Positions 10,745 to 64,000 of a DNA stretch of 64,000 nucleotides are shown piece by piece. The position numbers were made by a program, and so were the translations under genes. Source of the DNA: Argopecten irradians. Its lineage: Eukaryota > Mollusca > Bivalvia > Pectinida > Pectinidae. The DNA lies in NCBI RefSeq assembly GCF_041381155.1, contig NC_091138.1:20337255-20401254 (forward strand), written 5' to 3'. The notes under the pieces are model-generated. The model was not told where the DNA came from, made no database searches, and saw only the letters and a list, made by a program, of their open reading frames with translations. How positions within the stretch are numbered: position 1 is the first letter of the stretch; every line of letters begins with the position of its first letter.

Positions 10745-12410
10745 ATCCCTTAAAATTTTAAGTTAAAACCCCCATCTACCAATTTTCAATCAATTGCTGA
10801 CAAAAATTAGAAAACCGGAAGTTTGCCCAGCGACAATCTTTTAAAATTTTTATCATATTGATCATCATCCCTTAATACCCCTATATGCTAATTTTTATTG
10901 AAATCAGAGACCAAAATATAAAAACAGGAAGTTAGCCCAGCGGCCATCTTGGAATACCAAATACCTTAAAACCCCCTGTAGACCAATTTTCATTGAGATC
11001 GGAGATCGAAACCTGAAGAACAGGAAATGAGCCAGCAGCCATCTTGGAATAGCAAAATCTTTACGAAAACCTTTGCATGTTGTTCGCCATCCCTTAAAAC
11101 CCCTATATACCAATTTTCATTGAGATAGAAGACCGAAACCTGAAAACAGGAAGTGGGCCAGCAGCCATCTTGGAATACTAAAATCTTTACGAAAATATTT
11201 GCCAGTTGTTTGCCATCCCTTAAAACCCCTACAAACCAATTTTCTTTGAGATCGGAGACCAAAACCTGAAAACAGGAAGTGGGCCAGCAGCCATCTTGGA
11301 ATACCAAAAATCTTCACGAAAATGTTTTCATGATGTTCGCCATCACTTAAAACCCCCATAGACCAATTTTCAGCGAGATCGGAGATCGAAACCTGAAGAA
11401 CAGGAAATGAGCCAGCAGCCATCTTGGAATAGCAAAATCTTTACGAAAACCTTTGCATGTTGTTCGCCATCCCTTAAAACCCCTATATACCAATTTTCAT
11501 TGAGATAGAAGACCGAAACCTGAAAACAGGAAGTGGGCCAGCAGCCATCTTGGAATACTAAAATCTTTACGAAAATATTTGCCAGTTGTTTGCCATCCCT
11601 TAAAACCCCTACAAACCAATTTTCTTTGAGATCGGAGACTAAAACCTGAAAACAGGAAGTGGGCCAGCAGCCATCTTGGAATACCAAAAATCTTCACGAA
11701 AATGTTTTCATGATGTTCGCCATCACTTAAAACCCCCATAGACCAATTTTCAGTGAGATCGGAGATCGAAACCTGAAAACAGGAAGTGGGCCAGCGGCCA
11801 TCTTGGAATACCAAAATCTTAACGAAAACCTTTGCATGTTGTTCGCCATCCCTTATAACCCCTATATACCAATTTTCATTGAGATAGAAGACCGAAACCT
11901 GAAAACAGGAAGTGGGCCAGCGGCCATCTTGGAATACTAAAATCTTTACGAAAACCTTTGCATGTTGTTCGCCATCCCTTAAAACCCCTAAAGACCAATT
12001 TTCATTGAGATCGGAGACTGAAGCCTGAAAACAGGAAGTGGGCCAGCAGCCATCTTGGAATACCAAAAATCTTCACGAAAATGTTTTCATGATGTTCGCC
12101 ATCCCTTAAAACCCCCATAGACCAATTTTCATCGAGATCGGAGACCGAAAACTGAAAACAGGAAATGGGCCCTGGCGGCCATCTTGGACTTCCGGTTGGG
12201 AAAAAAAAAACTTTATGCACAATCCCATACCCTAATGAATATGTATGTGAAGTTTCGTGATAATCGGCCCAGTAGTTTCTGAGAAAAGCTGCGGAAACCC
12301 ACGCGGCGGAAGAAACCAGAAGAAATAAGAATAAAAATAATAATAATAATAATAATAAGAAACGGAGCAAAAACAATATGTCCCCCCACTTCGTTTGGGG
12401 GACATAATGA
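10745..12410 (-). mobile_element. Nonautonomous element with internal satellite array
   Basis: The core is a tandem array with a unit of about 127 bases, each containing 'ccaattttca', 'gaaaacaggaagtgggcc' and 'gccatcttggaatacc'. A higher-order period of 380 bases (three units) is visible: the segment from 10990 is repeated almost exactly from 11370. The array ends in a unique tail at about 12165-12410 with an (ata)n stretch and a terminal hairpin, 'gtccccccacttcgtttg' followed by 'ggggac'. Read on the minus strand, that hairpin is the 5' end. Long open frames inside the array are by-products of its period. It lies in a MARCH-like gene intron. Confidence 0.65.
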
Positions 12411-27476: not shown

Positions 27477-28008
27477 CTTTTTGTTTGTTTGATTGATTGA
27501 TTAACGTCCTATTAACAGCTATGGTCATGTAAGGACGGCCTCCCATGTATGCGGTGTGTTGCGTGTATGTTGTGCGAGGTGCGTGTTTCTGGAGACTGCG
27601 GTATATTCATGTTGTGTCTTCTGTAAAGTGTATAGTGGAACTTTTGCCCTTTTTATAGTGCTATATCACTGGAGCATGCTGCCGAAGACACCAAGCAACA
27701 CACCCCACCCGGTCACATTATACTGACAACGGGCGAACCAGTCGTCCCATTCCCTTTTTGCTGAGCGCTAAGCAGGAGCAGAAACTACCTCTTTTATAGA
27801 CTTTGGTGTGTCTCGGCCAGGGGACAGAACCCAGAGCCTTCCTCACAGGGGCGAACGCTCAACTCAAGGCCAAATGTGAGGCGGTGCCAAGGGAGGCATT
27901 AGGAAGGATAAAGTCAGTTAGGAAGAATAGAAAAGATAAGATCCTAAATTTAGTCGCCTCATGCAATAGGGGCAGCAGGTACAATTCTAACGCCCTACTT
28001 GCAGGGCA
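27477..28008 (-). mobile_element. Full-length SINE copy, reverse orientation
   Basis: The poly(T)-like start 'tttgtttgtttgattgattg' is followed by all the modules of the 26307 copy in reverse, down to 'cctacttgcagggc'. Together with 26307-26852 it forms a large inverted pair. The 102-codon plus frame at 27803-28111 is a by-product. Confidence 0.7.
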
Positions 28009-43579: not shown

Positions 43580-46500
43580 TTATGCTGAAATCACATGCTC
43601 AGTTACTTGGGTTTTGTGTTTGTGATGGTTTTTCAGATCGAGACTTCCGGTTGTACTGTCATATCCGGTACTATAATGACCACTATCAGAAGTTCCACTG
43701 GTATTGTCAGAGGACAGACTGCTAATTAATCCACTACAGGGTCTATATTGTACTTGTGTAACGCCTTGGGGTGAGATATCTTCCTCGTCTTGGTCGGATT
43801 CTAACTGCTTTATAGTGGTTTCTTCACTGCTGGCGGAATGGCGCTTAGAGCTGGAATTTTTTACATTCACTGAAAAGAAACATGTTGTTCAGGAATATAT
43901 CCATATTAAACATTAATCGGGTAAAAAAGCAGATGAAAAGGTTAACTTATCAACATTCATTTTCTGATGTAACAAAAAAAGAGCTTTCGAGACTGAACTT
44001 CGTGGACATGACTCAGCTTACCAGCACTTGTTCGCATGTTATGGCGGTCAATGAGGATACAGTCAGCGGGGTTGGACGCTCTATGTTCCTCTATGGGATG
44101 GGCGATGATTGGCTTATCTATCTCGATGGGAGGACTTTGTGGAGATTCTTCTGTGTATCTCCCAATATCGTCACTACCATCATCCATCAGTTTAGATGAG
44201 AATTGACTTTCTACGTTACCGGAACGCTCAGTAGGTTGGCACAGGGTTTTTCCTGTAACAGAACAAATATGTAAATGAGATTTAATTAGTTGCATCCATC
44301 TACAAGTAACAACACTGTTATCCCACAACATGACTGAGGACTAAGTCCAGGGTGGTTGAAGCAGTTGTTAACATCACGGATGAGTTCTAGAGGTCGATAC
44401 AGCTTATATTATTGAAGTTAAATATTCCAAGGTTACATGTACATTATTTCTTACCATAGTTTGTTTTCCTTACCTTCAGGTTTTCCGCATTTGTTTCCAT
44501 TCCGAGGTAACAATGGCTCCTCCTCTTCCCGGCAACAACCAACTGTTGCTGCCATGCCATTCGCCCCTGACGCCGACACTACGGATATTGCATGGAGGTC
44601 ATCGTTCACGCCTGGATCTGGACCTGTCTGCTGTTGTGGTGTATGCTGCTGTGGTCCTGATGTCTGATCTGGTCCCTGTCCTGCTGACATTAGTTTCGTT
44701 TCCTCTTGTCCAGCTTTAATATGTTGAACTAATGTTCGGCGTGTCTTCAACGCTGTGATTAGGATGACAACAAGCAGTATGATCGCGACGACAATTACCA
44801 CAACCAGGATGGTAATCACAATCCATTGGCTTTTATTCTCATCTGAAAAATAATAATGCGCCATCTATATAGTAGTTTAATTGTCCTCCTATCTCCTCAG
44901 ATAACAATATTGAATCAATTTATAGAATTAGAACCACAAAATATTTATTTAACTTTGCCTCTTTTTGAGAAAAAAACATACCGCATACTGATATCAAACT
45001 GCATTAAAATTTTGTGCATATTTGTCATTATAATGTGACCGGGTGGGGTGTGCTTGTTCGGAGTCTTCTGCGGCATGCATAAGTGAAATAGCAATAGAAG
45101 CGCAATAGTTCCACTATACAAGAGGATACAGCACGAAAAATCGCAGCCTCTCAATACAGACATTTACTCACTGCAGCTAATTGCACAATGCACACGTGGG
45201 AGATCGTTATCAATTGACCCTGGCTGTAAATAGGACAATAGTACGTTAAACCTCTGATACAGCAAACAATAAGTGTGCGATCATTATGTAATGAAAGAGA
45301 TATAAATGTCCTGTTGTGACAGGAATGGAATCAAATGTTCTTTGTGAAGAAAACTTTGTGTGTGGTTAGATCTAATGCTTCATACCATGTGACGTCATTT
45401 CAATTATTAAAATAACTATCACACAAAGATTCTACATTCAACGTTTAATACTTCTGGTAGTATTTAATATTTAGTACAAACCTGTTAGTGACGAGAGTCT
45501 GTCAATCGTAGATTCTCCTTCCACACTATTCCCTAACATAGCACCTGGAAGTTAAAACATTTTTAAAATAAACATGCGCCATCAAGTTTAATAGTAATCT
45601 GATTTTTATTTGGAAATTGAGAAAACTTCGATTTAACCTAGAGTCGTTTCGTCAATGAAACAGAGTCTTTAGAAACACGATTCCGTGCAGATAAACCTAT
45701 GATATCTTTAGGTCAAATATCGTCTTGTAAACATACTTGCCATCTTGAAACACCAAAGTGTTTCGTATAGGACTACACATTTCAGTTTTCCCCGTGTGAA
45801 GTCGATCGGGTCACTTGATATGTTCCGGAAATCGAGACTTTCTATGAACTGCTTCGTATCGTTTGGGTTTGTACTTATTATTGGCCATGTTATTTTTTTA
45901 AACATCAGATGAGAATGCTGCATTCTGATTGGTCGAGAGATATTTGGCATTTCACACTATCACACGGCAAATAGCATTAGAACAATAGGAGACAATAGAC
46001 ACGTTCGCAGCAACCTCCCCTAGCAACGGGTGTATATTTGACAATATATAAATACTACCTGCAGGTAGTATTTGTTTTATTATACCAAGAGAAACAAAAC
46101 TAGTTTTCAAGTATTTGCAATATATTGAAACATTTTAACTTATTTCAGCAAAAGTCGAAAGCTCACCGTCGGAAGTAAAATAGCATATCAGCTTTTACTC
46201 AAAAGCGCTTATTATCATTGCATTATAAAAAAGAATACTCACCATAAACATTCAGTGAAATATTTATTTTACTTCCGACAGTGATTTTTCGACTTTTGCT
46301 AAAATAGGTAAAATGTTTCAATAGATTTTAAATACTTGAAAACTAGTTTTGTTCTTAGACTTTCGGAATAAAAATAAATACTCTGCATTAGAGGATGACA
46401 GTGCCTAGTACCTAGAGGATGACAGTGCCTAGTACCTAGAGGATGACAGTGCCTAGTACCTAGAGGATGACAGTGCCTAGTACCTAGAGGATGACAGTGC

Positions 46501-49245
46501 CTAGTAAGTGTCTAGTACCTAGAGGATGACAGTGCCTAGTACCTAGAGGATGACATTGCATCATGCCTAGAGGATGACAGTGCCTAGTACCTAGAGGATG
46601 ACAGTGCCTAGTACCTACAAATGTAGAGGATGACACTGCCTAGTGCCTAGAGGATGACAGTGCCTAGTACCTAGAGGATGACAGTGCCTAGTACCTAGAG
46701 GATGACAGTGCCTAGTACCTAGAGGATGACAGTGCATCATGCCTAGAGGATGACAGTGCCTAGTACCTAGAGGATGACATTGCATCATGCCTAGAGGATG
46801 ACAGTGCCTAGTACCTACAAATGTAGAGGATGACACTGCCTAGTGCCTAGAGGATGACAGTGCCTAGTACCTAGAGGATGACAGTGCCTAGTACCTAGAG
46901 GATGACAGTGCCTAGTACCTAGAGGATGACAGTGCCTAGTACCTAGTAGAGGAGATGACATTGCATCATGCCTAGAGGATGACAGCTGCTAGTGCCTAGT
47001 ACCTAGAGGATGACAGTGCCTAGTACCTACACATGTAGAGGATGACACTGCCTAGTGCCTAGAGGATGACAGTGCCTAGTACCTAGAGGATGACAGTGCC
47101 TAGTACCTAGAGGATGACAGTGCCTAGTACCTAGAGGATGACAGTGCCTAGTACCTAGAGGATGACAGTGCCTAGTACCTAGAGGATGACAGTGCCTAGT
47201 ACCTAGAGATGACAGTCTAGTACCTAGACAGTGCTGTACAGTGCCTAGTAGATAAGTGTCTAGTACCTAGAGGATGACAGTGCCTAGTACCTAGAGGATG
47301 ACAGTGCCTAGTACCTAGAGGATGACAGTGCCTAGTACCTAGAGGATGACAGTGCCTAGTACCTAGAGGATGACAGTGCCTAGTACCTAGAGGATGACAG
47401 TGCCTAGTACCTAGAGGATGACAGTGTCTAGTACCTAGAGGATGACAGTGCCTAGTACCTAGAGGATGACAGTGCCTAGTACCTAGAGGATGACAGTGCC
47501 TAGTACCTAGAGGATGACAGTGCCTAGTACCTAGAGGATGACAGTGCCTAGTACCTAGAGGATGACAGTGCCTAGTACCTAGAGGATGACAGTGCCTAGT
47601 ACCTAGAGGATGACAGTGCCTAGTGCCGCGAGGACATCACTGTCACCCTCGGCGAAACTTTCAAAGTTGGTCTCAGTAACAACCCAGACTTTAGTCAACA
47701 TTTATGCAGAGAGATTGTGGTAATTTTATTGTAAATGATTGTGATTACAAAAATTTAAACCCTGAAAAGTTAGGTATATTAGGAAATTTTATGATATTTC
47801 TTCACGACTTACCTTTCATTGTGTTGGTAGAAGTATCATCATGCCCGCCACGTTCAAGTTCTGAACAAGAGAATAATTAGTTTCTGATTAGATCTTCACG
47901 ATAGTTAAATACATGTATGTTCTACTTTTCCAACTGCGTTGATCTTAAGGCAATGCAACGAAACAAATGACAGAACGATTAAATCTTTAGTATATTTAGA
48001 TGAACTACAGGACAGTACTGGCTTATTATTGTTATTTATGAGACCTATGAAGTTGGTGCATTAGTGATATTAAGATTGGAGGTTCGGGATAAAATTTAAC
48101 TTCACATGCATAATTTAAGTTGTAAATGTTTACTGATGCACAGAAAATACTTCCACTATCACCCCCTCCGCAAGCTTTTCATCTTATATAAATGTATAAA
48201 ACTGTGTACTTGATTGCACGTATCCAGTTATAATATTGCGGCATGACTTAAGATAGACGTTAAGCTATGTACATATTCACACATATTGAGTATTTCCGCT
48301 GTTACATATCTTCTATAATTAGAGTGTAAATTTTCACACCAGAGAGTCGAGCAATACCTATCGTGATCGGCCGGGGGTCAATCATAGCTTACTCCTCTAC
48401 TTCACATTGTGTGTATCGCAGTTCAATACTTGACGTTGTTAAATGTATCAATTTATATATATTAAATACGGAGTAAACGAATATAATACATGTTTAATAT
48501 TTTATTATGTCGTCTTCATTATCAAGGTGATAAGTTTTTAGTGAGTCTGTCGACATTCTTTATATTTTTCATTTATACTACCATAACATGTATATCTTGT
48601 ATTTTAAATTATAACAAATTCAATTATTTTCCAATTGTATCATTTTCAAATGCTTAAATTATTTCTGATGTACTGAATACATTTAGTTGTTTCTGATGTA
48701 CTGAATACATTTAGTTGTTTCTGATGTACTGAATACATTTAGTTATTTCTGATGTACTGAATACATTTATTTATTTCTGATGTACTGAATACATTTAGCA
48801 ATTTCTGATGTACTGAATACATTTATTTATTTCTGATGTACTGAATACATTTAGTTGTTTATTATGTACTGAATACATTTAGTTATTTCTGATATACTGT
48901 TTCTAATGCATTTTCATGATTTAAAAAAATCATTATCTTGATTTCGTTAAAAGCTAATGTTATGTAACTTTATGTATACTTATTATTATTTAAAGTATTT
49001 ATTTCTCGTATTGACTCACCTTTACAGCGCGTGTAACACTGAGATGGCGTATCTAACGAGTAACACTCGGACTGAGTACACGCGTGACAGGACGGTCTCT
49101 GACCTTCTAACACCCGACAGTATTCGACAGGAAACTCACAGAAGTCCACTCCACAGTTGAACCAGAAGCCATCCGGGGGTAATTCCAAAGAAGAACACAG
49201 TGAAATTGTACTACATAATAATGAAACAAGTCTTATTCTATCCAT
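43580..49245 (-). CDS. Type I membrane receptor-like protein, six exons, 408 aa (possible TNFR relative)
   Basis: Exons in transcript order are 49245-49020, 47860-47813, 45544-45482, 44842-44474, 44252-44022 and 43869-43580. All five introns have GT-AG ends and all are phase 1; the total is 1227 nt including the stop. Residues 1-19 are a likely signal peptide (MDRIRLVSLLCSTISLCSS). Residues 20-75 carry eight Cys in a compact ectodomain (NCGVDFC, CRVLEG, CHACTQSEC, QCYTRC). A polar stalk comes from two tiny exons. A membrane segment (WIVITILVVVIVVAIILLVV) follows at about 120-145. The cytoplasmic tail of about 260 residues is Ser/Thr/Asp-rich with no death domain. The Cys spacing recalls a single TNF-receptor cysteine-rich module, and AGQEE fits the general TRAF-binding pattern. 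Both are inferences. No family is firmly recognised. Confidence 0.8.
44474..44842 (-). CDS. Receptor-like gene, transmembrane exon
   Basis: The acceptor TATTTTTCAG precedes 44842 and the donor CTGAAG|GTAAGG follows 44474. It is 369 nt. After DENKSQ it encodes the single membrane segment, a basic stop-transfer (KTRRTLVQHIK), AGQEET, a Gln/Pro-rich run, a CC pair and an acidic di-leucine-like EEEEPLLP that could act in endocytic sorting. Confidence 0.8.
45025..45255 (+). mobile_element. SINE 3' fragment in receptor-gene intron
   Basis: It runs from 'taatgtgaccgggtggggtg' to 'aatagtacgttaaac', the diverged tail half of the SINE family. Confidence 0.65.
46092..46354. mobile_element. Palindromic MITE, about 95-base arms
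   Basis: The left arm, containing 'aaaactagttttcaagtatt', 'tattgaaacattttaa', 'gcaaaagtcgaaa' and 'gtcggaagtaaaata', is repeated inverted on the right. The loop is about 80 bases. It lies in the receptor-gene intron, next to the minisatellite. Confidence 0.75.
46381..47630. repeat. Minisatellite, 24-base unit, about fifty copies
   Basis: The unit 'agaggatgacagtgcctagt' plus 'acct' repeats over 1.25 kb with few differences. Variant units carry 'cattgcatcatgc' or 'acctacaaatgt', and these variants recur in the same order, which shows duplication of multi-unit blocks. It is in the intron between receptor exons 2 and 3. The small frames on either strand are by-products. Confidence 0.97.
47861..48654. 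other. Receptor-gene intron, no feature seen
   Basis: AT-rich sequence without supported features. Confidence 0.4.
48655..48895. repeat. Minisatellite, 28-base unit
   Basis: About eight copies of 'tttctgatgtactgaataca' plus 'tttagtta' lie in the first intron of the receptor-like gene. Confidence 0.92.
49020..49245 (-). CDS. Receptor-like gene, exon 1 (signal peptide and Cys-rich ectodomain)
   Basis: The start codon is at 49245 and the donor is TGTAAAG|GTGAGT after 49020, phase 1. It encodes the signal peptide and all eight ectodomain cysteines. A TATA-like stretch (tataaatag) on the plus strand near 49301-49309 lies just upstream. Confidence 0.8.
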
Positions 49246-54332: not shown

Positions 54333-54395
54333 CGTTTGATTTATTTAACGTCCTATTAATAGCCAATGTAAGGACGGCTGACCCTGCGGTTAGAG
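54333..54395. mobile_element. SINE pieces at the left flank of the P-type element
   Basis: A reverse tail piece ('tttaacgtcctattaatagc') meets a forward head piece ('accctgcggttagagc'). The head piece continues on the far side of the 9.1-kb element at 63501, so this is the pre-insertion SINE. Confidence 0.6.
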
Positions 54396-54764
54396 CACAG
54401 GGGCCCGTAACTACTGTTTATATTATAATATATATTTTCAGTCACTGGGTACGTTATATCCCAATACAAGGGAAGACACTCGTCGAAAGAGTCACTTTTT
54501 TCAAATAAAGATTTCTCACGTAATATTCCATCAATTTTCATACGGTTTTCGCCTAGTTGCTCAAAAATGTTTTAAATTGATATATACACACCGATAATTC
54601 CCAGACACCTTTTTACACTCGAAATACGTCCTTTATAATCCAAATTCGTGTCGTCCCGCCCATACACATAACTAGTCGGACCGGAAGTGGAGGCGCAGCG
54701 AGTATCGTTTCGGAACTCTTCTACTGGGCCTTTGGGGAGTCTCGGATCTTTACCATGGTAAGTG
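54396..54764 (+). repeat. Left terminal inverted repeat with promoter and first exon
   Basis: It matches the right end in inverted order through 'actgtttatattataata', 'attccatcaattttca', 'ccaaattcgtgtcgtc' and 'gcgagtatcgtttcggaac'. It contains an ETS-type ACCGGAAGTG (54680-54689) and ends in a splice donor, ACCATG|GTAAGTG (54757/54758). It has two insertions relative to the right arm. The Pif1 start codon lies about 90 bases downstream, so this arm is the likely helicase promoter. Confidence 0.8.
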
Positions 54765-54847
54765 TTTCTGTCAAATTTGTTGTTGATTTTTTTTCCCGCG
54801 AAGATCGTCTGCTAATGTAATCTTATTTCTGAACATTTCATGAAATC

Positions 54848-55455
54848 ATGGATGAATCTCAAACAAATGCCATTAGAATAGCTCACAGTGGACATAATTG
54901 TTTGATAACTGGGTTTCCTGGGACTGGAAAAACTTTTGTTTTGGGCCAAATTGTGGAATGTCTTCTGCTCGACAAGCGTGTTGTGCAAGTGACAGTATCA
55001 ACAGGGAAAGCTGCGCTTTTGTTGAAGTCTAGGTTGACATCACAGCTAAAGGCTTGCACGATACATAGCTTTCTTGGGTTAATGGATGGAAGGTTTTCCA
55101 ATTCTGAGTTATTAAGCCATTATCAGAAAGAGGACTTTGAACATCGCCTGAAGAGAGTATGGGAACTCGAAGTGTTAATCATCGATGAAATCAGTATGCT
55201 GAGCGCACGTTTATTTGAACAAATCGAATTCATTTTGAGAAATGTCAGACAATCTGAAAGACCATTTGGAGGCGTTCAAGTAATTCTTTCAGGGGATTTT
55301 TATCAACTACCACCAGTTCCTTCACCAGAGTATGGTGATGATGGGAGCTACATAATGCAGCATCCTTCTATTGCTCATTTCCACCATATCAACTTGACAA
55401 CTATCCATCGCCAGGAGGAACCTGATCTACTCTTAGCAGTGCAAGAGATTGCCTG
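54848..55455 (+). CDS. Pif1-type helicase, exon 1 (motifs I-III)
   Basis: It starts MDESQTNAIRIAHSG, a usual Pif1-type Q-motif context, and ends in the middle of a Cys codon. It carries the whole first RecA-like fold with Walker A, Walker B and motif III. Confidence 0.9.
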
Positions 55456-58400
55456 GTAAAAAAATACACTCCACCTCCCCAAAAGAACAACAAAAATATT
55501 TAAATAGTAATTCCATTCATGTTTGTAATTAATTCATATTTTTTTTATAATTGCTATATTTCTTTAACATTACATACATATATCAAATAATTCCGAATCA
55601 CAAATCCACCATCATCATCATGACATCATCAGCAGTCTCGCCATATAGCATTTTAACACTGTATCAAATTTGAAATTAATCATGATATTCATCCAGATGC
55701 ATAATCACCTTAATATATATTATCACATAGTAATTATTTACCAATAAATCAGCAATCCATGTCTATTACCTCATCATAAAACATTCATCATAATCATCAT
55801 ATCAATACATTAAGACATTAATGGAAAATCATTCAAGTGTTCGGTTCATTTCAAGTTAACACAATGACACGGCTACTGTAAGTATATGTCATATGGTAAA
55901 TTTAGGCCATGTGTATTTAGAGTTATTAAATGAGAATAGAATTAAAAATGCATGGAATTTTTCTTAGAAAATATTAAGTATTAATTGTTTCTATTCAGTA
56001 ACCCTATTTTATTTGTTTTACAGTGGGAAAGTATGCCTTGACAGTAGAAATTTGCTAGCAAGGATGGGAAGGAGCCTTCCACCAGAGCCAGCCAGTAGCA
56101 GACCTACACTTCATTTGTTTGCAACTAATTTTGAGAAGGACTTACATAATGCTAAGTGCCTCCAAAACTTAGATGGTAATTACAATTGTTATTTGTTTGT
56201 AATATCCGACAAGCACTTTCTTTTTCGTTTTAATGAGGCTCCAACACACAGGGCATTGTCATAGTTATATGGATCCGCACTCAATTCCCCAGCATTTGAA
56301 TTCCTTCCTTTTGAGCGTGCACTCTGGTTCAGTATGATGCTATTCATGGATGACGCATATGACCTGTAAGTTGGATGGGATGAGTTTCCATTACATATTC
56401 CCCTCACCTGACAGAAATTATTTTCTATTATATCAGAGTTGAATCTGTAAGGATATACACCTTCCCCTGGGAACTCCTTAGTATGTTGTTTACAGATACC
56501 TATAAAAGTGTAGAGAAGACTCAGCTGGTCATCTAGACACTTCTTGCTTGGCAGCATTTTCTCTTTTTCTTTTGGGGTAATGCTGAGTCCCTCAACCTCG
56601 TCTTTCCACTCAGTGAAGAATGCAATAACATCAAATAGATCTTTCAGTCTTTGGTCATGACAGGACTTGATAGGCCTTTTGTCCCTGTAATGTATTCAGT
56701 TGTGAATAGTGAATAATATTAACAATTTTAAAGTGTAAAATTTATGAAATAAAATTTAATATGTTTGAAATACATGTAAAAAAACACCCATTACTTGAAA
56801 ATATATATAAAAAAAGGAAAAATTCTGGTATTGTTTTTCACAATTTATGTAAAAAGAACTTAATTACATCAAATTGGGTATGTATGATGTCAATAAAACA
56901 CTATTTTTAAACAGAATTTAGTGGTATTGTTACTAAACATATTAATTTCAGATAAATTATTATCAAAACAGACTTGGATCAAAAACATGGGTAATTTTTT
57001 TTCCAAAAATCAGTTTAATTTAACATAAACACTTTCTGCTTACATACATACTAAATTGAAGTATTCACCAAATAATTACCTGAAAATTGTTATAACTGTG
57101 CTAGTTGTCCTCAAAAATTCAACGGCTCCATCTAATGCTGATTTGTTTAGAAGTGTGCTTCTGTAGGCTTCCATTAAATGAAGCATGTCTGTAGATAGCA
57201 TTTCCTCTGCAAGATGATTGCGCATTTTTTCAGAACTGTCTGGATACATATGTGATACATTTATCTTGCTATGTACTCGTCTCGAATTCACCTTTTCATC
57301 CCACTGTACTGCATCTAACCATTGTTGCCAGGTTATGGGGTTGCCATGCTTCATGAGATTTTTGGTGTGATGACTCTCATTACCACTACTCATCACTGCA
57401 TTTCGTAGTTTTTTCATGTTGTGGGAGTAATCCTGAGAATGTGCCATCTTTCTAAAGGGATTGCAAATATTCTGAGACATGAAGTGTTTCTTTACGGAAT
57501 CCTCATCCGAATCAAAGTTCAACTTCATAAATTGGCGATTTTGGTCACCGCCACCCTTAAAAACAAATAAAAAATATCTGATTATTTGCTTGTTAGGTTA
57601 ATTCATAGTTAATAGCCAATTCATTTATACAATTATTGTTATATATACATACAATAGATATTGGGCTGGTGAATCAGGAAGGGGTTGGGGTTGGATGTGT
57701 TGTTGAGTGTGTATGTGAGAGAGAGAGGGGGGGGTTATCATGTATCAAAAGTAGGTGACTCTGACCTATATATTAAACTTTGACCTACATCAAAGAATGT
57801 CTTTTTGTGGGATAGATCTATTATACTGTCACTTGCTTCATTATCTACAAATACAAATACATCATGTTTTATCAACTTATATATTTGACACAGGGACCTG
57901 AGATTTCAGTATTTTATAGATGTATAAAGGTTTTCATTTACCTGCAAAATAAAGTCAACTGTAAATCCCCAGGAACTGAGCTGGGACACTATGTTCCAAA
58001 GGAGGATGTAAAGTTCTGCACCAGTCACTCCAACAGAGGGGTAGTGGGCTACAGGGAAACGGAATCCAGTGTAACCTACAAACGTCACTTGCAGGACTTC
58101 ACTGGCTAGATGTTGTTTAACCTGTAAAAGTCAGAATTTAACATAAGTTATCAATCTATCGCTATACCCATAATTCAGTGTGGTTGAGTTTCAGGCTGTG
58201 CTTGGTCGATGTGTCTGTGGATTTATATTTTATCGGTGATCTGTCAATTTCAGAGAGGCCCAAAGGTTCTGCTAAAAACAGTGAATTTATACGTAACCAC
58301 AAAAAAACAGTGAATTTATACGTAACCACTTTTAACGTAAAACATGTAGTTTGAATTTACTCTAAAGTTATCAAGTTAATACCTCTACTTGCACTATAAT

Positions 58401-60904
58401 TCTTAGAGGCACGCACATTTTTAGGCGCTTAAACTTTAAAGCTACACAAAATAATCCAAGATAAGTCTTTATATCTGTTACCATACTTACTTCGCCTTCC
58501 TTAAGAATTCGAAGAAGCTTTCCTTCAGCTCCTGTGTCAACAAATCCCACCAAAGTATTTTCTTTTCCCTTGAGATTCAGTACAAGGCCTTCTTGTATTT
58601 TCATCTCATCGTGCACAAGTCCTCCATAATAACCAGAAGGGGGGATGTTTAATTTCCTGGCAGTTGCAGACATCCATCGTAGTATGTCTGTAGACAAACC
58701 AGGATCCTGTGGTGTTATGTTTTTGTACCTGAAATATTGAAAGATGAAAGTATATTGAAATTATGTAAACTAGGTTCATAACAAATCCAGAAATGCAGAT
58801 CAATGAAAGTCAAACTTTGATAACTTATGATTAAAATGTCTCGACATATTATCACAAGCCCTCCACCTCTAGGACGAGAGTTCAAATCCCATGTGGGGCA
58901 GTTGCCAGGTACTGATCGCCAATCAGTAGTTTTTCTCTGGGTACTTTGGCTTTCCACCATCAATTAACCTGGCATGTCATTACATGGCACTGGCTGTTAA
59001 TATGACATTAAAGTAATAAAACCTGTGATCAATTATGAAAGCCAGAAGCTTGACAGTTTGGTCAGTCACCTCTCATAAAAAAAAACATACCTTTGTAACT
59101 GTCGTCCAGATGGAAGTGCAAATATGTTTGCAGCCTTGAGGTCTTCATAAGCACGGGGACTTCTGCACCAAAGTTGGAGGCATGTTTTAATTATGGATTT
59201 GTCCCACTTCACCTGACCTTCTTGTCCCTCATTGGCCTTCAAAACATCATGCTGGTTTTTAAGGAACACTTTCATGGTGTCACTTGCTGTGGGGAACACA
59301 TTCTGGAGTATTGATGAAATGTCATCATCATCATTTTTGGCTAATGAAATATCTGTCTTACAAGTGTTCGTAAATTCGTTAAGGAGTTGTATGCATTTCC
59401 AGCAGGTGTTTCCAGTACTAAACCAATCTAATGCATGCATGCATGAGGGTGTTCTTACTTTTAATTGTCTTTCCTTGGCTGATTTTGACACAGTGCTATG
59501 CTCGGCAATGATGTGTCCTGGCACACTCTGCTTGTTGTCTATTTCCAGACCTGTACATATCTTGATTTTTTCTACTATCTTTACCACTGCCTTATATGGA
59601 GATTTTGTGTTGTCAAAATTTGAAGAAACACATAAGCGATCAAGAACTATTGGGCTTTCTCTAATCTTCAGAGACCATATTCGGGATTGTAAATCAAGTG
59701 TGACCTCCTTCATTATTTCATTTCCACTTGACACTACTCCAGACTTCATCACGAATGTACAAAAGTTTTTCAGTCTTCTCAAATACTGCCCCCTTTCCAT
59801 TTAGAAGTTCCTCTATAGTCTCTTCAAATTCAGTATCAGGACTTCTGTATTTTATACCTTGCAGCACACGTATTCGACCTGAACCACACCCTTACCATCT
59901 CTAACTTTAGAGTCTTTTACATTGAATAATCTAAATACATATCTACACAAAGTTTGTTTTGACACACTTGAACATTGATTCTGTTCTTGAAACAAATGAA
60001 ACAATTCATCTTTTATAACAGAAGAACGTGCATTTTCCTCAAGCACTGCACACAACCTGAAAATAGAAGTAACAGTGATTTAGTAAAATATTTGAATTTA
60101 CAAAATTTGTGTAAATAACTTTCAACCACTGTCAGGGCACAGGGGCCTGTTAGTACTGTTTACATTATAATGTATTATAACTGGGTACATCATATAACTT
60201 ACCCAGTGACCGAAACATTTATTATAATACATTATTATGTATTTAGTTACGGGCCCTGTGCTTAAGGTAACAAGGGCCAAGCTGTTAAAATGTGTTCACA
60301 ACTTTTTCTAAGTATAGACATACAGCCTAAGGCCATGATACTTGACAAACATGTATAAAGGTGATGTGATTGGTTATCAAGTTTGTTTCATTTCTCTCTA
60401 TATAATTATCCATATTCCTGCAAGTTTAGCATGTTTATAAATGATATTGTTCACAATTTCCTTTTTCATATGTTTCTAGGTGAGGAGGTCATATACAAAT
60501 GTCAAGATTCTGGTGAGGTCAAAGGCATCAGGGGTGAAAAGGAAATTCACATCAAAGTGAACTGCACAGTGGTGTTGATAGTGAATTTGTCAGATGACTT
60601 GGTCAACGGTCTATCAGGGACAGTCACAGAAACAGGAAAGGAGAGTGTTGTTGTGTATTTTCCTGACCTGAACCGGACTGAATGCATACCCTTCTACAAT
60701 TTCACAAAGTATGACCCTATCCTTAAAGTGGATATTGGATCTAGGAAGCAGTTGCCATTGACACTGGGGTATGCGTTGACCGTTCATAAGGCCCAAGGTG
60801 TTACAGTGGACAGGGTAGTCATAGAGTGTAAAAACATGTTTCAGTATGGTCAGCTGACTGTTGCTGTAAGCCGTGTGACTAAGAAAAAAAAGGGCTTCAA
60901 TTGA
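54848..60904 (+). CDS. Pif1-type SF1B DNA helicase, three exons, 394 aa
   Basis: Exons are 54848-55455, 56024-56175 and 60480-60904; joins at GCCTG|GTAAAA...TTTTACAG|T and AGATG|GTAATT...TTTCTAG|G keep the frame (IACGKVC and LDGEEVIY). Pif1 helicases unwind DNA 5' to 3' using ATP. Visible motifs are GFPGTGKTF (Walker A, residues ~22-30), STGKAA (Ia), IIDEISML (II), LSGDFYQLPP (III), TTIHRQ near 190, NLSDDLVNG (a Pif1-like insert), LTVHKAQG (V) and LTVAVSRV (VI). This is a compact but motif-complete core without extra N-terminal domains. Intron 2 is 4.3 kb and contains the antisense transposase. The frame ends KKKKGFN-stop after a run of eight A. In the next frame, homology-like sequence (IEEFLGKFTEDN) runs on to 60976, so a one-base slip is possible. 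ATG at 54848 is chosen because Walker A follows at normal distance. Confidence 0.88.
56189..56684 (-). CDS. P-type transposase, last exon
   Basis: The acceptor CATTACAG precedes 56684. It encodes the catalytic Glu region: KCLDDQLSLLYTFIGIC, then SDIIENNFCQVRG and SSHPTYRSYASSMNSIIL, matching the 'lEnfFg.iR...G....PTa.qF...l' block of P-type transposases. The stop codon at 56189 is only 13 bases from the helicase exon-2 donor on the other strand. Confidence 0.85.
56189..60058 (-). CDS. P-element/THAP9-type DDE transposase, at least six exons
   Basis: Exons in transcript order are 60058-59858, about 59837-59092, 58728-58491, 58121-57942, 57555-57080 and 56684-56189. From 59092 onward all joins have GT-AG ends and keep frame. 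Motifs are KWDKSIIKTCLQLWCRSP with ALPSGRQLQR (exon 2, like the 'W.d..i..al.L....p.aY..L' block before the catalytic core), GGLVHDEMKIQEG (first Asp), VGFVDTG, GYTGFRFPVAHY, GGGDQNRQF (second Asp), NPFRKMAHSQDYSHNMKKLRN, PITWQQWLDAVQWD, and IIENNFCQVRG (Glu) followed by HPTYRSYA. This order is that of the P element catalytic core. The estimated total is about 780 residues. The 55 nt around 59855-59800 are out of frame between two apparent single-base indels, so this copy's N-terminal part is damaged. No THAP zinc finger was found. The gene lies wholly within helicase intron 2. Confidence 0.82.
57080..57555 (-). CDS. P-type transposase, exon with second catalytic Asp
   Basis: The acceptor TTTTTAAG and donor TTTTCAG|GTAATT bound it. 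It begins GGGDQNRQF and includes the ITWQQWLDA and HMYPDSSEKMRNHLA blocks seen in P-type and THAP9 proteins. Confidence 0.8.
58491..58728 (-). CDS. P-type transposase, exon with first catalytic Asp
   Basis: The acceptor AATATTTCAG and donor GGCGAA|GTAAGT bound it. It encodes ILRWMSATARKLNIPPSG and then GGLVHDEMKIQEG with the first catalytic Asp, followed by the usual 'vGF.d.G' strand. Confidence 0.85.
58858..59020 (+). mobile_element. tRNA-derived SINE fragment in transposase intron
   Basis: A box B-like 'gagttcaaatccc' is followed by 'ggcagttgccaggtactgat', 'tctgggtactttggctttcc' and the tail 'ggctgttaatatgacattaa'. This differs from the main SINE of the window except in its tail. Confidence 0.6.
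60138..60260. mobile_element. 123-base palindrome with the big element's own ends
   Basis: It starts CACAGGGGCC and ends GGGCCCTGTG. Its left half resembles the first 60 bases of the left arm ('gtactgtttacattataa', 'actgggtac'), and its right half mirrors it. It is a minimal MITE of the same family, lying inside the full element between the transposase and helicase exon 3. No target duplication was found. Confidence 0.7.
60480..60904 (+). CDS. Pif1-type helicase, exon 3 (motifs V-VI)
   Basis: It carries the second RecA-like fold. 'LPLTLGYALTVHKAQGVT' and 'QYGQLTVAVSRV' are the diagnostic C-terminal Pif1/RecD-like motifs. A reading frame open upstream of 60480 is intronic; the acceptor TTTCTAG fixes the exon start. 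Confidence 0.9.
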
Positions 60905-61089
60905 AGAATTTCTCGGAAAGTTTACTGAAGATAACCACCAAAGGAACTCACTGACTTTTATCAAAGAACACCACTAACTGTTATGGATGATAAGTCATGC
61001 TGTTCCAACATGCATGTTTTTAAATGTAAACATTCAACAAGTGGAAATATCACCTGCTTCTGAAATTTCTGAAGACCCCTAAAATGACA

Positions 61090-62905
61090 GCTCAGAGGAT
61101 GTAAGACTACTCCATTAGAACAATTTTCGAGCACATTGAAAAACATTTGGACCCAGGAGTTGTCACACATCATCTATCTTAGGATATCAAACATCAATAG
61201 TGACATTTCTCGCTACACAGATACAATACGTAGTGACCACCCAGGAATTACCGGAACAGGTACAGGAAAAGGAAGTTCTAAGTATCCTCACACCAACAGA
61301 CAGAGCTTTCATTAATTGAGTATAATTCCTCTGGGACAAAATCTTACTCTATGAAGGCAAATACACCTAAATGGGAGAAAAGAGCAGTCTAACAAGAAAG
61401 TCAATGATTTGGACAAGGATGTTAATAAGCTTACTTTCCTCAATTTTTTTGTTAGATTTATTAACGTCCTAAGTAACAGCTATGGTCATGCAAGGACGGA
61501 CCTCCTATGCGGTGAATGGAAAGATTACAATGCAAGGGTTACATGTATGTGTACAAAGCAGGAACTTTCTGTGAGCTTCTTCAATGGTTACTTTTAAAAT
61601 AAGTCAGCGACTCCGAGAACTTGTTCTGAAAGAAACTGTGAAACCTATCATAGAAAAGACAACCCAAATGAGTGAAGAAAGCACAGATGAATTTACAGAC
61701 TCCCCAGATGGTGTAGGGAAGATAAAATATATATCAGGATGGTGTGTAAATTCTGTACGCAAAAAGAAGAAGAAAATTATTCAGGCAAACATGTATAAAA
61801 AAACAGAGTGAAAGAAATTGAGAAATTGATCAAGGAGAAGAACCTACTAGATCACATAGAGGACAGATACAATTCCAAAAACAATTAAATGATTGACTCA
61901 AAAACAAAAACTTAGGAAAGGGCTGTGTGTTGTGTCGGAGGAAACGCTCACATTTTTCTTGGCACTTGACAAGAAAATTCGTCAGTTGCAGTCACAGAAA
62001 AATGTAGAGATACATGGAAGTCATGTTTGGCAATTCCTAAAAACCAATTTGCTACATGATGAAAAGCTAACACAAATGTTTGAAGGGCTGTTCCTTCAAG
62101 CTGAAGCTTGCGATAAAGAATGTGAGCTCAAACAGATTTATGATGAAATTATTTCAAAATACAGCTCCATGAGTGTGGCTCAGCTTCGGAAAGAATTTTT
62201 GATGAAATGTAGTGCCAAGAAAAAGGAAGCTACACGTAAACAAATCAAGGTCAGGACAGAAAAGGTGAAGACATCCAAACTGACATTCAGGACCTTTTTA
62301 AGTGACAAATCATCAACAAAATTAGCATCCCATAGGAAGTTACAATCTGAACTCATCCTGGACAAATCATACTTGGAAAAAAACTTCACAAAACTCCAGC
62401 TACATACACTTTCACGAGCATATCAGATTAGTTTACCCAAAACGGCTAATACAAAGAAGGCAATGACAGATTTGATTGTGGACACTGTCTTAAGTGCTGA
62501 CAACATAGTTGAGCCTAATGCTTTTTGGGATGATATGCCGGGTCCCTGTGCTCCGATTCCTGCAACATCAGGCCCATCAAAGTCGACCAAGGATATACAA
62601 TCAGCCCCGTCAACATCGACTCAGGAAACACAATCACCCCCATAAGCATCATCCAAGGATAAAACATTAACTCTCTCAAAACAGCCTTTAAAACGGAACA
62701 GTAGATGTAAAGGAAAGGGAAAAAAGAAAAAGGGTTCAGTAAAATGGCCATGTGGTGTGTGTAATAATTATGCTTCTCATGATTCAGTTGCATGTGATGT
62801 CTGTGATACTTGGTATCATGCTGATTGTTTGCAGATAAAAGATTAAAATGAATTACCAGATGAGTAGTATTGTAACATGTGTTATGACAAATTGTAGGCG
62901 GCTAT
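61090..62905 (+). pseudogene. Decayed third gene with C-terminal PHD finger
   Basis: Broken coding pieces lie in order: IEKHLDPGVVTHHLS (near 61130), YVVTTQELPEQVQEKEVLSI (near 61228), ISQRLRELVLKETVKPIIEK with GKIKYISGWCVNSV (61584-61811), then a 250-codon frame (61893-62645; Lys-rich, with KKLAL-type coiled-coil potential). After a stop come a basic KGKGKKKKG stretch and a PHD-like Cys/His pattern: CGVC, CDVC, WYHADC, CNMC (62744-62900). PHD fingers usually read histone tail marks. At least six stops or frameshifts are visible, and a SINE tail sits inside. I do not recognise the upstream part. Both the start and the promoter are unknown. Confidence 0.6.
61441..61516 (-). mobile_element. SINE tail fragment within the third gene
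   Basis: 'attaacgtcctaagtaacag' followed by 'ctatggtcatgcaaggacgg' and 'cctatgcggtg' is the reverse SINE tail, inserted into the decayed gene. Confidence 0.6.
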
Positions 62906-63175
62906 TTAGGCCTATATTTATAATCTGTATGACAATCGTGCTACGTTACGTTGTCGACATGCAAGATTTTCAAAGTGTGCAAAAACATTTAATTTATTTA
63001 ATTTCTTAAAATATCAGAAAACCCCTTTTTATTGAAAAGCTTACTTACCAAGAAACTGTCAAAGGATTGTTTGTTGCAAAACGATCAGACTCTCTGATTT
63101 AAAATGTGTCCGCCATTCGAACTTTTAGGTATACATGTATTTATATATTCGAAAAAAATGCACCATTTCTACTAG
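62906..63175. other. Subterminal region of the P-type element
   Basis: AT-rich stretch between the decayed third gene and the right inverted repeat. No feature seen. Confidence 0.4.
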
Positions 63176-63500
63176 CACTTACCAGTGTAAGGATTCGAGT
63201 CTCCTCGAAGGTCCAGGAGAAGAGTTCCGAAACGATACTCGCTGTGCATCCACTTCCGGTCCGACTAGTTACGTTTATGAGCATGACGACACGAATTTGG
63301 ATTAGATAGGACGTATTTCCAGTGTTAAATGGTGTGGGAATTTTTGAGCAACTTGGTGAAAATTGATGGAATATTACCTGAGAAATCTTTGTCTGAAAAA
63401 AGTGACTCTTTAAGCGAGTGTTTCTCTTGTATTGGGATATAAGATACCCAGTTACTGAAAAAATATATTATAATATAAACAGTAGTTACGGGCCCCTGTG
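63176..63500 (-). repeat. Right terminal inverted repeat with mirrored promoter and first exon
   Basis: Read on the minus strand it repeats the left arm: the CACAGGGGCCC end, 'ccaaattcgtgtcgtc', ACCGGAAGTG (63251-63260), 'gcgagtatcgtttcggaac' and the donor CACTG|GTAAGTG (63183/63182). Transcription from here would run leftward toward the transposase exons, the first of which has an acceptor at 60058. Confidence 0.8.
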
Positions 63501-64000
63501 GTTAGAGCGTTAGCATTGTACCTGCTGCCCCTATTGCATGATCATAAACGGCGACTAAATTTAGGATCTTATCTTTTCTCTTCCTCCTAACTGACTTTAT
63601 GTTTCCTAATGCCTCCCTTAGCACCGCCTTACTTTTGGTCTTGGGTTGAGCGTTTGCCCCTGTGAGGAAGGCTCTGGGTTCTGTCTCCTGGCAGAGACCA
63701 CCAAAGTCTATAAAAATGGCAGTTTCTGCTCCTGATTAGCACTCAGCATACAGGGAGTGGGACGACTGGTTCGCCCGTTGTCAGTATAATGTGACCGGAT
63801 GGGGTGTGTTGCTTGGTGTCTTCGACGGCATGCTTCAGTGATATAACAATAAAAAAGGGCAAACGTTCCACTATACAAGAAGACACAACACGAACATACT
63901 GCAGTCTCCCAAAACACGCACATCGCACATCACACAAACTACAAACTGCATACATGGGATGCCGTTCTTACATGACCATGGCTGTTAATAGAAAGTTAAG
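63501..64000 (+). mobile_element. SINE copy split by the P-type element
   Basis: It begins 'gttagagcgttagcattgta' directly after the element, then follows the 26307 copy module by module to 'ggctgttaatagaaagttaa' at the window edge. Its head is repeated at the left flank (54381-54396), which gives the target duplication. Confidence 0.8.

Follow-up and report, generated by a model that had tools for sequence, protein, structure and literature searches.

The element in the window

The window analysed here, a stretch of 64,000 nucleotides from Argopecten irradians (contig NC_091138.1), contains at positions 54396-63500 a transposon of 9105 bp, which we assign to a family designated A. It carries a Pif1 helicase gene on the + strand and a P-superfamily transposase gene on the − strand, the latter nested antisense in the helicase intron between exons 2 and 3. 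We regard the anatomy of a lineage of such two-gene P-type elements as practically certain. The features of the element are listed below; a slash marks a possible exon border.

54389-54395, no strand: left target site duplication GTTAGAG (flank comparison; repeat paralogues without the insertion have the site once, with small differences)
54396-54764, + strand: left terminal inverted repeat (TIR), begins CACAGGGGCCCGTAACTAC (inverted-repeat alignment)
Near the inner end of the left TIR: ACCATG/GTAAGTG, possible first exon and splice donor
54848-55455, + strand: Pif1 helicase exon 1 (PF05970 PIF1, E=8.3e-30; donor GTAAAA)
56024-56175, + strand: helicase exon 2 (matches of 46 amino acids (aa) at 46-48% in families B and C; CAG and GT borders)
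56192-56684, − strand: transposase C-terminal exon with the putative third catalytic acidic residue (NSDIIENNFCQVRG) (PF21789 weak, 0.018; 55% to family B)
57080-57555, − strand: transposase exon with the putative second catalytic position (comparison with the copy on contig C1193 and with other families)
57942-58121, − strand: transposase exon (VLQVTFVGYTGFRFPVAHYP...) (open frame of 60 aa; acceptor; similar to family B by eye)
58491-58728, − strand: transposase exon with the putative first catalytic residue (GGLVHDEMKIQ) (PF21787; AG and GT borders)
59066-60060, right border approximate, − strand: transposase N-terminal exon or exons (comparison with C1193)
60138-60260, no strand: internal short derivative bearing the same termini, present in C1193 as well (L031:3822-3946) (repeat comparison)
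60480-60904, + strand: helicase exon 3 with motifs V and VI (weak UvrD_C_2 and Pif1_2B matches; acceptor TTTCTAG)
61893-62645, + strand: C-terminal extension of the helicase gene (shares an open frame with the last helicase motifs in family B and, as far as its start is concerned, with the helicase in family D)
62740-62897, + strand: degenerate PHD finger, open in families B, D and E (by eye; stops in the window copy)
63176-63500, − strand: right TIR, terminates ...GGGCCCCTGTG (inverted-repeat alignment)
63501-63507, no strand: right target site duplication GTTAGAG (flank comparison)

The TIRs measure 369 bp on the left and 325 bp on the right and align in three pairs of arms, namely 54396-54474/63422-63500 (94%), 54476-54540/63357-63421 (91%) and 54605-54764/63176-63335 (87%). 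At the left junction GTTAGAG is followed by CACAGGGG, and at the right junction CCCCTGTG is followed by GTTAGAG. The unoccupied site is visible in five paralogues of the surrounding repeat, with small differences in the 7-mer. The element is inserted in a dispersed repeat, the two sides of which form inverted repeats of each other (53973-54116/63852-63996); the stretch 63503-63999 also matches 27501-27997 in inverted orientation (87.5%).

The window copy is defective: the frames of both genes are lost, stops interrupt the PHD region, and glycine stands at the second catalytic position.

Second copy and short derivatives of family A

All genome searches reported here cover one animal genome and scored the best candidates, so that the numbers of matches are lower bounds. 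A search of the 846-Mb host genome with the left TIR, in which the best 40 of 76 candidates were scored, gave at least 77 matches. A second family A copy of 9397 bp was found on contig C1193 (L031:264-9660), its longest block being 97.1% identical to the window copy over 7070 columns. Its TIR is continuous (375 bp, 98.9%), its flanks differ from those of the window copy, and it is bordered by a 7-bp duplication of its own, CTTCAAT. The insertion lies inside a dispersed repeat, and a further copy of this repeat (L069) has the unoccupied site with one CTTCAAT (L069:9857-9863). The C1193 copy is also damaged: its helicase frame is broken in exon 1, its transposase frame terminates prematurely near L031:4847, and its extension is interrupted by a repeat.

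Twelve short derivatives could be delimited by pattern among L004-L037, and eight of them show an exact 7-bp duplication, the other four showing none; no other length between 5 and 10 bp was seen. The target duplication of family A is 7 bp. A 9-bp duplication, the ambiguous maximum in the window copy (GGTTAGAGC), was rejected because the second copy, its unoccupied site and the short derivatives all give 7 bp as the size for the family. A first-pass annotation of this DNA had described one unit bounded by inverted repeats with a duplication of up to 9 bp. The unit is borne out by the TIRs in the window and by the second copy with its own duplication; the duplication is likewise present, its size being 7 bp in families A and B and 8 bp in family D.

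The short family A derivatives are without both genes; those delimited measure 85-161 bp, except for one of 1112 bp (L006-L030 and other matches of the left TIR). One of similar kind, of about 123 bp, lies within the window element itself (60138-60260), has the element's own termini and is without a matching duplication. Since it is found inside both family A copies, it was probably already present in their common ancestor. At C1:38.58M (L034) lies a relative that retains the left end but is decayed and has an internal deletion; it lacks helicase exon 1 as well as the greater part of the transposase.

The sequence ACCATG/GTAAGTG occurs in both TIRs of the C1193 copy and at 54755-54764 in the left TIR of the window copy, the right TIR of which has CTG. 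Its presence in both TIRs of C1193 suggests that the two genes may have identical first exons, one in each TIR.

The helicase gene

The three helicase exons in the window (54848-55455, 56024-56175 and 60480-60904) have GT/AG borders and can be joined in frame by eye. After motif VI the frame is lost in the window copy and continues in the C1193 copy. Read by eye, the exons contain the stretches GFPGTGKT, STGKAA, IIDEIS, SGDFYQLPP, HRQ, TVHKAQGVT and VAVSR, to which we take the usual helicase motif names to apply. The match to PF05970 reaches 8.3e-30 in family A, 5.3e-29 in family B and 1.7e-30 in family D. Compared with known structures, the family D helicase matches PIF1 at 1.4e-59 and 6.9e-51, presumably the yeast and the human protein, and Helraiser far more weakly (8.3e-11). 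By domain and motifs the predicted protein is assigned to the PIF1 family (superfamily 1B, SF1B), and the motif-complete Pif1 helicase claimed by the first-pass annotation is thereby upheld, with the PF05970 match lying on exon 1.

The C-terminal extension ends in a PHD finger that is recognized by PF00628 in families B (1.3e-8), E (5.9e-6) and D (9.8e-6); a profile of the extension matches PHD fingers, among them the ones in SPP1, TAF3 and BPTF. The part between helicase and PHD finger gave no clear match in Pfam or PDB. In L068:832-2400 it shows a recurring R-Y-I/V-x-G-W/F/Y stretch and no known domain ahead of the PHD finger. The first reading of this DNA had not mentioned that the transposase is nested antisense, that the helicase gene has an extension with a PHD finger, or that the window copy is decayed.

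The transposase gene

The catalytic core of the transposase is described by PF21787, which scores above its cut-off in families B, D, E, G and I; the window stretch 58491-58730 reaches 24.5 bits, just below the cut-off of 24.6. A profile built from five element transposases and three window exons matched the Drosophila P transposase structure 6p5a at 4.4e-10, the next match being at 0.9. The profile had initially contained a further protein, encoded by a solo gene on contig C15; with it 6p5a was matched at 4.8e-18 and the three acidic positions were aligned by eye, and in the repeat without the C15 protein the match is weaker but stands. In the profile alignments the third acidic position of the window C-terminal exon is aligned with that of the Drosophila P transposase. 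C1193, like families B, D, E, G and I, has aspartate at the second catalytic position; the window copy has glycine there, and its transposase frame is also broken near 59800 relative to C1193. On these alignments the protein is classified as a P-superfamily transposase of the RNase H type with a predicted D, D, E core.

The N-terminal parts of the transposases of families A, B, D and E gave no match to the THAP domain PF05485, although a THAP domain on a small separate exon could have escaped this search. Equally, none of 147 THAP matches in the genome, taken from the best 150 of 238 candidates, lies inside these elements as judged by eye. The N terminus instead resembles an RFX winged helix weakly (Pfam 0.0025; RFX5 0.021 and 0.019), which is a lead only; this region lies at L068:4051-4314 and has counterparts in L031, L071 and L081. 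The GTP-binding domain PF21788 scores just above its cut-off in family I (25.0 bits, 2.8e-5; cut-off 24.8), is weak in family D (0.016), and is not listed for families B, E and G. The designation of the transposase as P-element/THAP9-type in the first-pass annotation is correct for the catalytic core (PF21787, 6p5a profile); as no THAP domain was found, “THAP9-type” fits this core only.

Further families carrying both genes

Both genes lie between matched ends in five delimited copies of three families (A, B and D). The ends of all three families begin with CACAGG, and their TIRs measure 310-505 bp. The first stretches taken for two copies of family B, C1:25.93M and C2:24.56M, did not contain the ends, which were obtained by comparing the two copies in longer stretches. 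Their main blocks are 99.5% and 99.1% identical, and the homology stops at the outer limits of the TIRs, which are 310 bp long and, in either copy, 100% identical to each other; the termini read CACAGGCGTTTGTAATAT. The C1 copy (10017 bp) is bordered by the duplication ATCAAGG; it has open frames of 809 aa for the transposase and of 784 aa for the last helicase exon, which ends in the PHD finger. The C2 copy measures 11834 bp. Its transposase part is present twice in tandem (L070), which as a single case would fit template slippage. The family D element (C14:24490600-24499674, 9075 bp) has TIRs of 505 bp with one mismatch (CACAGGGGGCCAACTC), an 8-bp target duplication (CTTGCAGT) and an open helicase frame of 1429 aa.

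The arrangement of the genes differs between the families. The transposase lies within a helicase intron in A and B, and the exon order of C fits the same arrangement. In E, F and G it separates the core of the helicase from the extension; the two genes are tail to tail in D; and in I the order is extension, helicase, transposase.

The proposal of a P-lineage subfamily with its own helicase, made from the window alone, agrees with these findings: five copies, belonging to three families, enclose both genes between ends of one kind, and the pairing recurs throughout the genome. The repeated co-occurrence within the same termini, which had been suggested as a check, holds in this one genome for the five delimited copies. 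Ends without the helicase, named beforehand as a counter-indication, do occur in the short derivatives and at C1:38.58M, the former being without both genes and the latter decayed. Among the five long copies, which were themselves chosen by their helicase, none combines these ends and an intact transposase with the absence of the helicase.

Pairing in the genome and co-divergence

To count the pairing of both genes, all rows from the searches with PF21787 (at least 16 matches) and with the family B transposase (at least 32) were merged within 13 kb on one strand into 27 transposase loci. For the proximity count 37 helicase places were chosen from the rows of the searches with helicase exon 1 (at least 115 matches) and PF05970 (at least 127), and unpaired loci were checked by eye against the full lists, which showed no closer match within 10 kb. 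A Pif1-like match occurs within 10 kb at 13 of the 27 transposase loci, at all 13 on the opposite strand, compared with a chance expectation of approximately 0.3% per locus. As the 13 loci include two copies of family A and three of family B, they represent about ten families. Outside family A the paired helicases are 35-57% identical to that of the window. The extension has 31 matches in the genome, 23 of which fall at loci where the transposase is matched too.

A classical P transposase is encoded at C15:10260200-10261900 (L080; PF21787 1.6e-22, PF21788 4.9e-20), with no Pif1 match near it. By its domain matches the C15 protein is placed in a second P lineage of this genome. A search for relatives in viral contigs with one query protein gave 3 pattern matches and no relative.

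Trees of both proteins, also suggested in the first-pass annotation, point in the same direction. Eleven element helicases form one group (100/100) against three outgroup helicases, one of which is Helentron-like and has an endonuclease domain. Transposase and helicase distances of eight families diverge together (r=0.78), a value that is reached by 47 of 40320 relabellings, and families E, F and G are grouped in both trees. In eight comparisons between families the proportion of synonymous differences (pS) is 0.78-0.87 for both genes, which is near saturation, and that of nonsynonymous differences (pN) is 0.26-0.42. Judged by this codon comparison both genes are under purifying selection between families.

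Relation to known transposons

The elements share their transposase core with the Drosophila P and THAP9-type transposons (PF21787; 6p5a 4.4e-10). They differ from them in the absence of a detected THAP domain, in the weakly RFX-like N terminus, in a GTP-binding domain that is above the cut-off in family I only, and in the second gene for a helicase. Transposase core, 7- or 8-bp duplication and TIRs place the elements, by sequence features, in the P superfamily without a THAP domain; we count this domain as typical and not as defining, since it is the core of the transposase by which the superfamily is delimited.

According to the available part of PMC3688188, members of the P superfamily other than Galileo have TIRs of 30-50 bp, compared to 310-505 bp here. 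For Galileo of Drosophila, TIRs of 0.5-1.2 kb and duplications of 7 bp, rarely 8 bp, are given in the available parts of PMC3688188 and PMC4168063. Galileo thus resembles the present elements in its long TIRs and 7-8-bp duplications, and differs from them in having a THAP domain and, as far as these partial texts go, in having no helicase mentioned for it. The long ends that the first-pass annotation had set against those of classical P elements are real; together with 7-8-bp duplications they were already known from Galileo.

Accessory helicases are known from KolobokH and Kolobok-1_CCri, in the latter on the complementary strand (available part of PMC9587614). As described there, these are likewise DDD/E transposons with an accessory helicase; they belong to another superfamily, carry RecQ and not Pif1, and come from fungi and a red alga. 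We set both Kolobok and Academ apart by the P-type transposase and the varied 7-8-bp duplications of the present elements, their profiles not having been compared individually. Kolobok targets TTAA, and Academ is a DNA transposon with a different transposase superfamily, some members of which have a helicase. Helitrons and Helentrons also carry a Pif1-family helicase. They are of the HUH/Rep type and are not known to have TIRs or duplications, unlike the present elements with both; in the helicase tree the Helentron-like sequence from this genome lies outside the clade of the elements, and no Rep/HUH family is among the Pfam matches listed for the window and its relatives.

A P transposon with a Pif1 helicase was not found in a literature search aimed at it, and an entry in Repbase or Dfam only remains possible. 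Of two papers on bivalves, the available part of PMC10294476 contains neither “helicase” nor “P element”, although its search profiles include P, and that of PMC9646362 names a PIF1-like helicase only as a transposon-related domain. The P-type lineage with Pif1 appears to be new; long TIRs with 7-8-bp duplications (Galileo) and accessory helicases (Kolobok) are known.

Possible role of the helicase

We interpret the window element as a defective family A copy of a P-superfamily transposon lineage that has acquired a Pif1 helicase and kept it, its likeliest role being that of a helper in gap repair; as a whole we consider this explanation moderately probable. Most simply, the helicase was gained once and long ago. 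P elements are the textbook cut-and-paste transposons, and their multiplication depends on the repair of the gap at the donor site. The transposase would excise and insert the element by P-type cut-and-paste and leave such a gap, over which the element's own Pif1 helicase would drive repair synthesis with a migrating D-loop, similar to synthesis-dependent strand annealing (SDSA) or break-induced replication (BIR), across 9-12 kb. The donor copy would be restored from the sister chromatid, so that cut-and-paste would yield a net gain. An element of 9-12 kb would profit from long repair synthesis, and the PHD finger may bring the helicase or the complex to active chromatin.

The mechanism itself appears possible and somewhat short of probable to us. 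In the available part of PMC8951532, PIF1 is required for BIR in yeast and promotes it in Drosophila, is needed for efficient repair of P-element excision gaps in a 14 kb assay when POL32 is absent, and is named among the host factors of donor gap repair. A further elaborated version, a two-gene cut-out and copy-back system in which the helicase closes the excision gap of the element by copying, is guided by the PHD finger to active chromatin and stays linked to the transposase by nesting, is put forward tentatively and with a larger share of doubt.

Several observations weigh against a lineage with a helper helicase. At 14 of the 27 transposase loci there is no Pif1-like match within 10 kb. 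Three of these (C15, C14:4.57M and C494) match PF21787 only; C494 has an extension match at 14 kb and C2:70.70M a helicase match at 18 kb; C5:44.16M has a longer, broken transposase match and no helicase; and the remaining nine loci have short matches. Of the helicase loci, 10 of 22 (E<=1e-10 in the exon 1 search) have no transposase match within 10 kb; with regard to a host orthologue, the other counter-indication named beforehand, they comprise two pieces of family B, one piece of family G, two of outgroup type and five with in-frame stops. Ends were sought in families A-E and are known for three of about ten families, no TIRs being found for C and E, and in family B the C2 copy is not flanked by a matching duplication. 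The group of A, B and C is supported in the transposase tree and lacks resolution in the helicase tree, where family I forms a long and uncertain branch. Within families pN/pS is uninformative due to too few differences, one helicase pair having pS 0.01 and pN 0.01. A single-protein search with the family E transposase gave nothing relevant and missed the P transposase. Finally, the suggested role in gap repair is drawn from the behaviour of host PIF1 elsewhere.

Alternatively, the helicase could act in transposition itself and not in repair of the donor gap; it would then open or remodel the ends with their long TIRs, the target or the synaptic complex. The TIRs of 310-505 bp, near-identical within the copies of B and D, and the joint divergence of helicase and transposase are in favor of such a step. 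To our knowledge the Drosophila P reaction needs no helicase from the transposon, and Galileo also has long TIRs with no helicase mentioned for it in the partial texts; we consider this explanation unlikely.

A regulatory or counter-silencing function, in which the helicase gene product would act through its PHD finger on chromatin or on RNA:DNA hybrids at the element's promoters and outside the transposition cycle, is improbable in our view. It could account for the C-terminal PHD finger in B, D and E, for the similarity of the extension profile to the fingers of SPP1, TAF3 and BPTF, and for a possible start of both genes in the TIRs (ATG/GTAAGT in both TIRs of C1193). The helicase domain is nevertheless kept under selection between families, which suggests that motor activity is needed.

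Quite improbable is an element made replicative by the helicase, in which a strand would be peeled away or copied in the manner of Helitrons and the P transposase would provide the end chemistry only. A Pif1-family helicase next to a DNA-cutting transposase does recall the Helitron formula, and the family B copies are near-identical, whereas the clean 7- or 8-bp duplications and the P-type core fit a double-strand cut-and-paste and no HUH/Rep family appears among the Pfam matches listed. A chance composite, in which a P element would have received a Helentron or a host PIF1 gene or would itself have inserted into a Helentron, is hardly credible and was rejected: Pif1-like helicases are frequent in this genome (at least 127 matches, at least one Helentron-like), yet the pairing recurs at 13 loci, always on opposite strands and with helicases outside family A at 35-57% identity to that of the window, the same kind of ends is shared by three families, and the helicases form a separate clade.

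With regard to gap repair by the element's own helicase, a P lineage that carries Pif1 would imply selection on donor repair within the transposon itself, and would provide a natural test of this idea. A further implication is that P-type transposons, and not Helitrons or the host, account for part of the numerous Pif1-like genes in such genomes.

Other repeats in the window

The window contains two tandem arrays, one at 10964-12188 with a 126-bp unit in approximately 10 copies and a higher order of 380 bp, and one at 46389-47624 with a 24-bp unit in approximately 50 copies. Two further long inverted repeats, 33990-34516/36452-36978 (95%, 528 columns) and 26300-26834/27480-28007 (90%, 542 columns), are candidates for other TIR elements.

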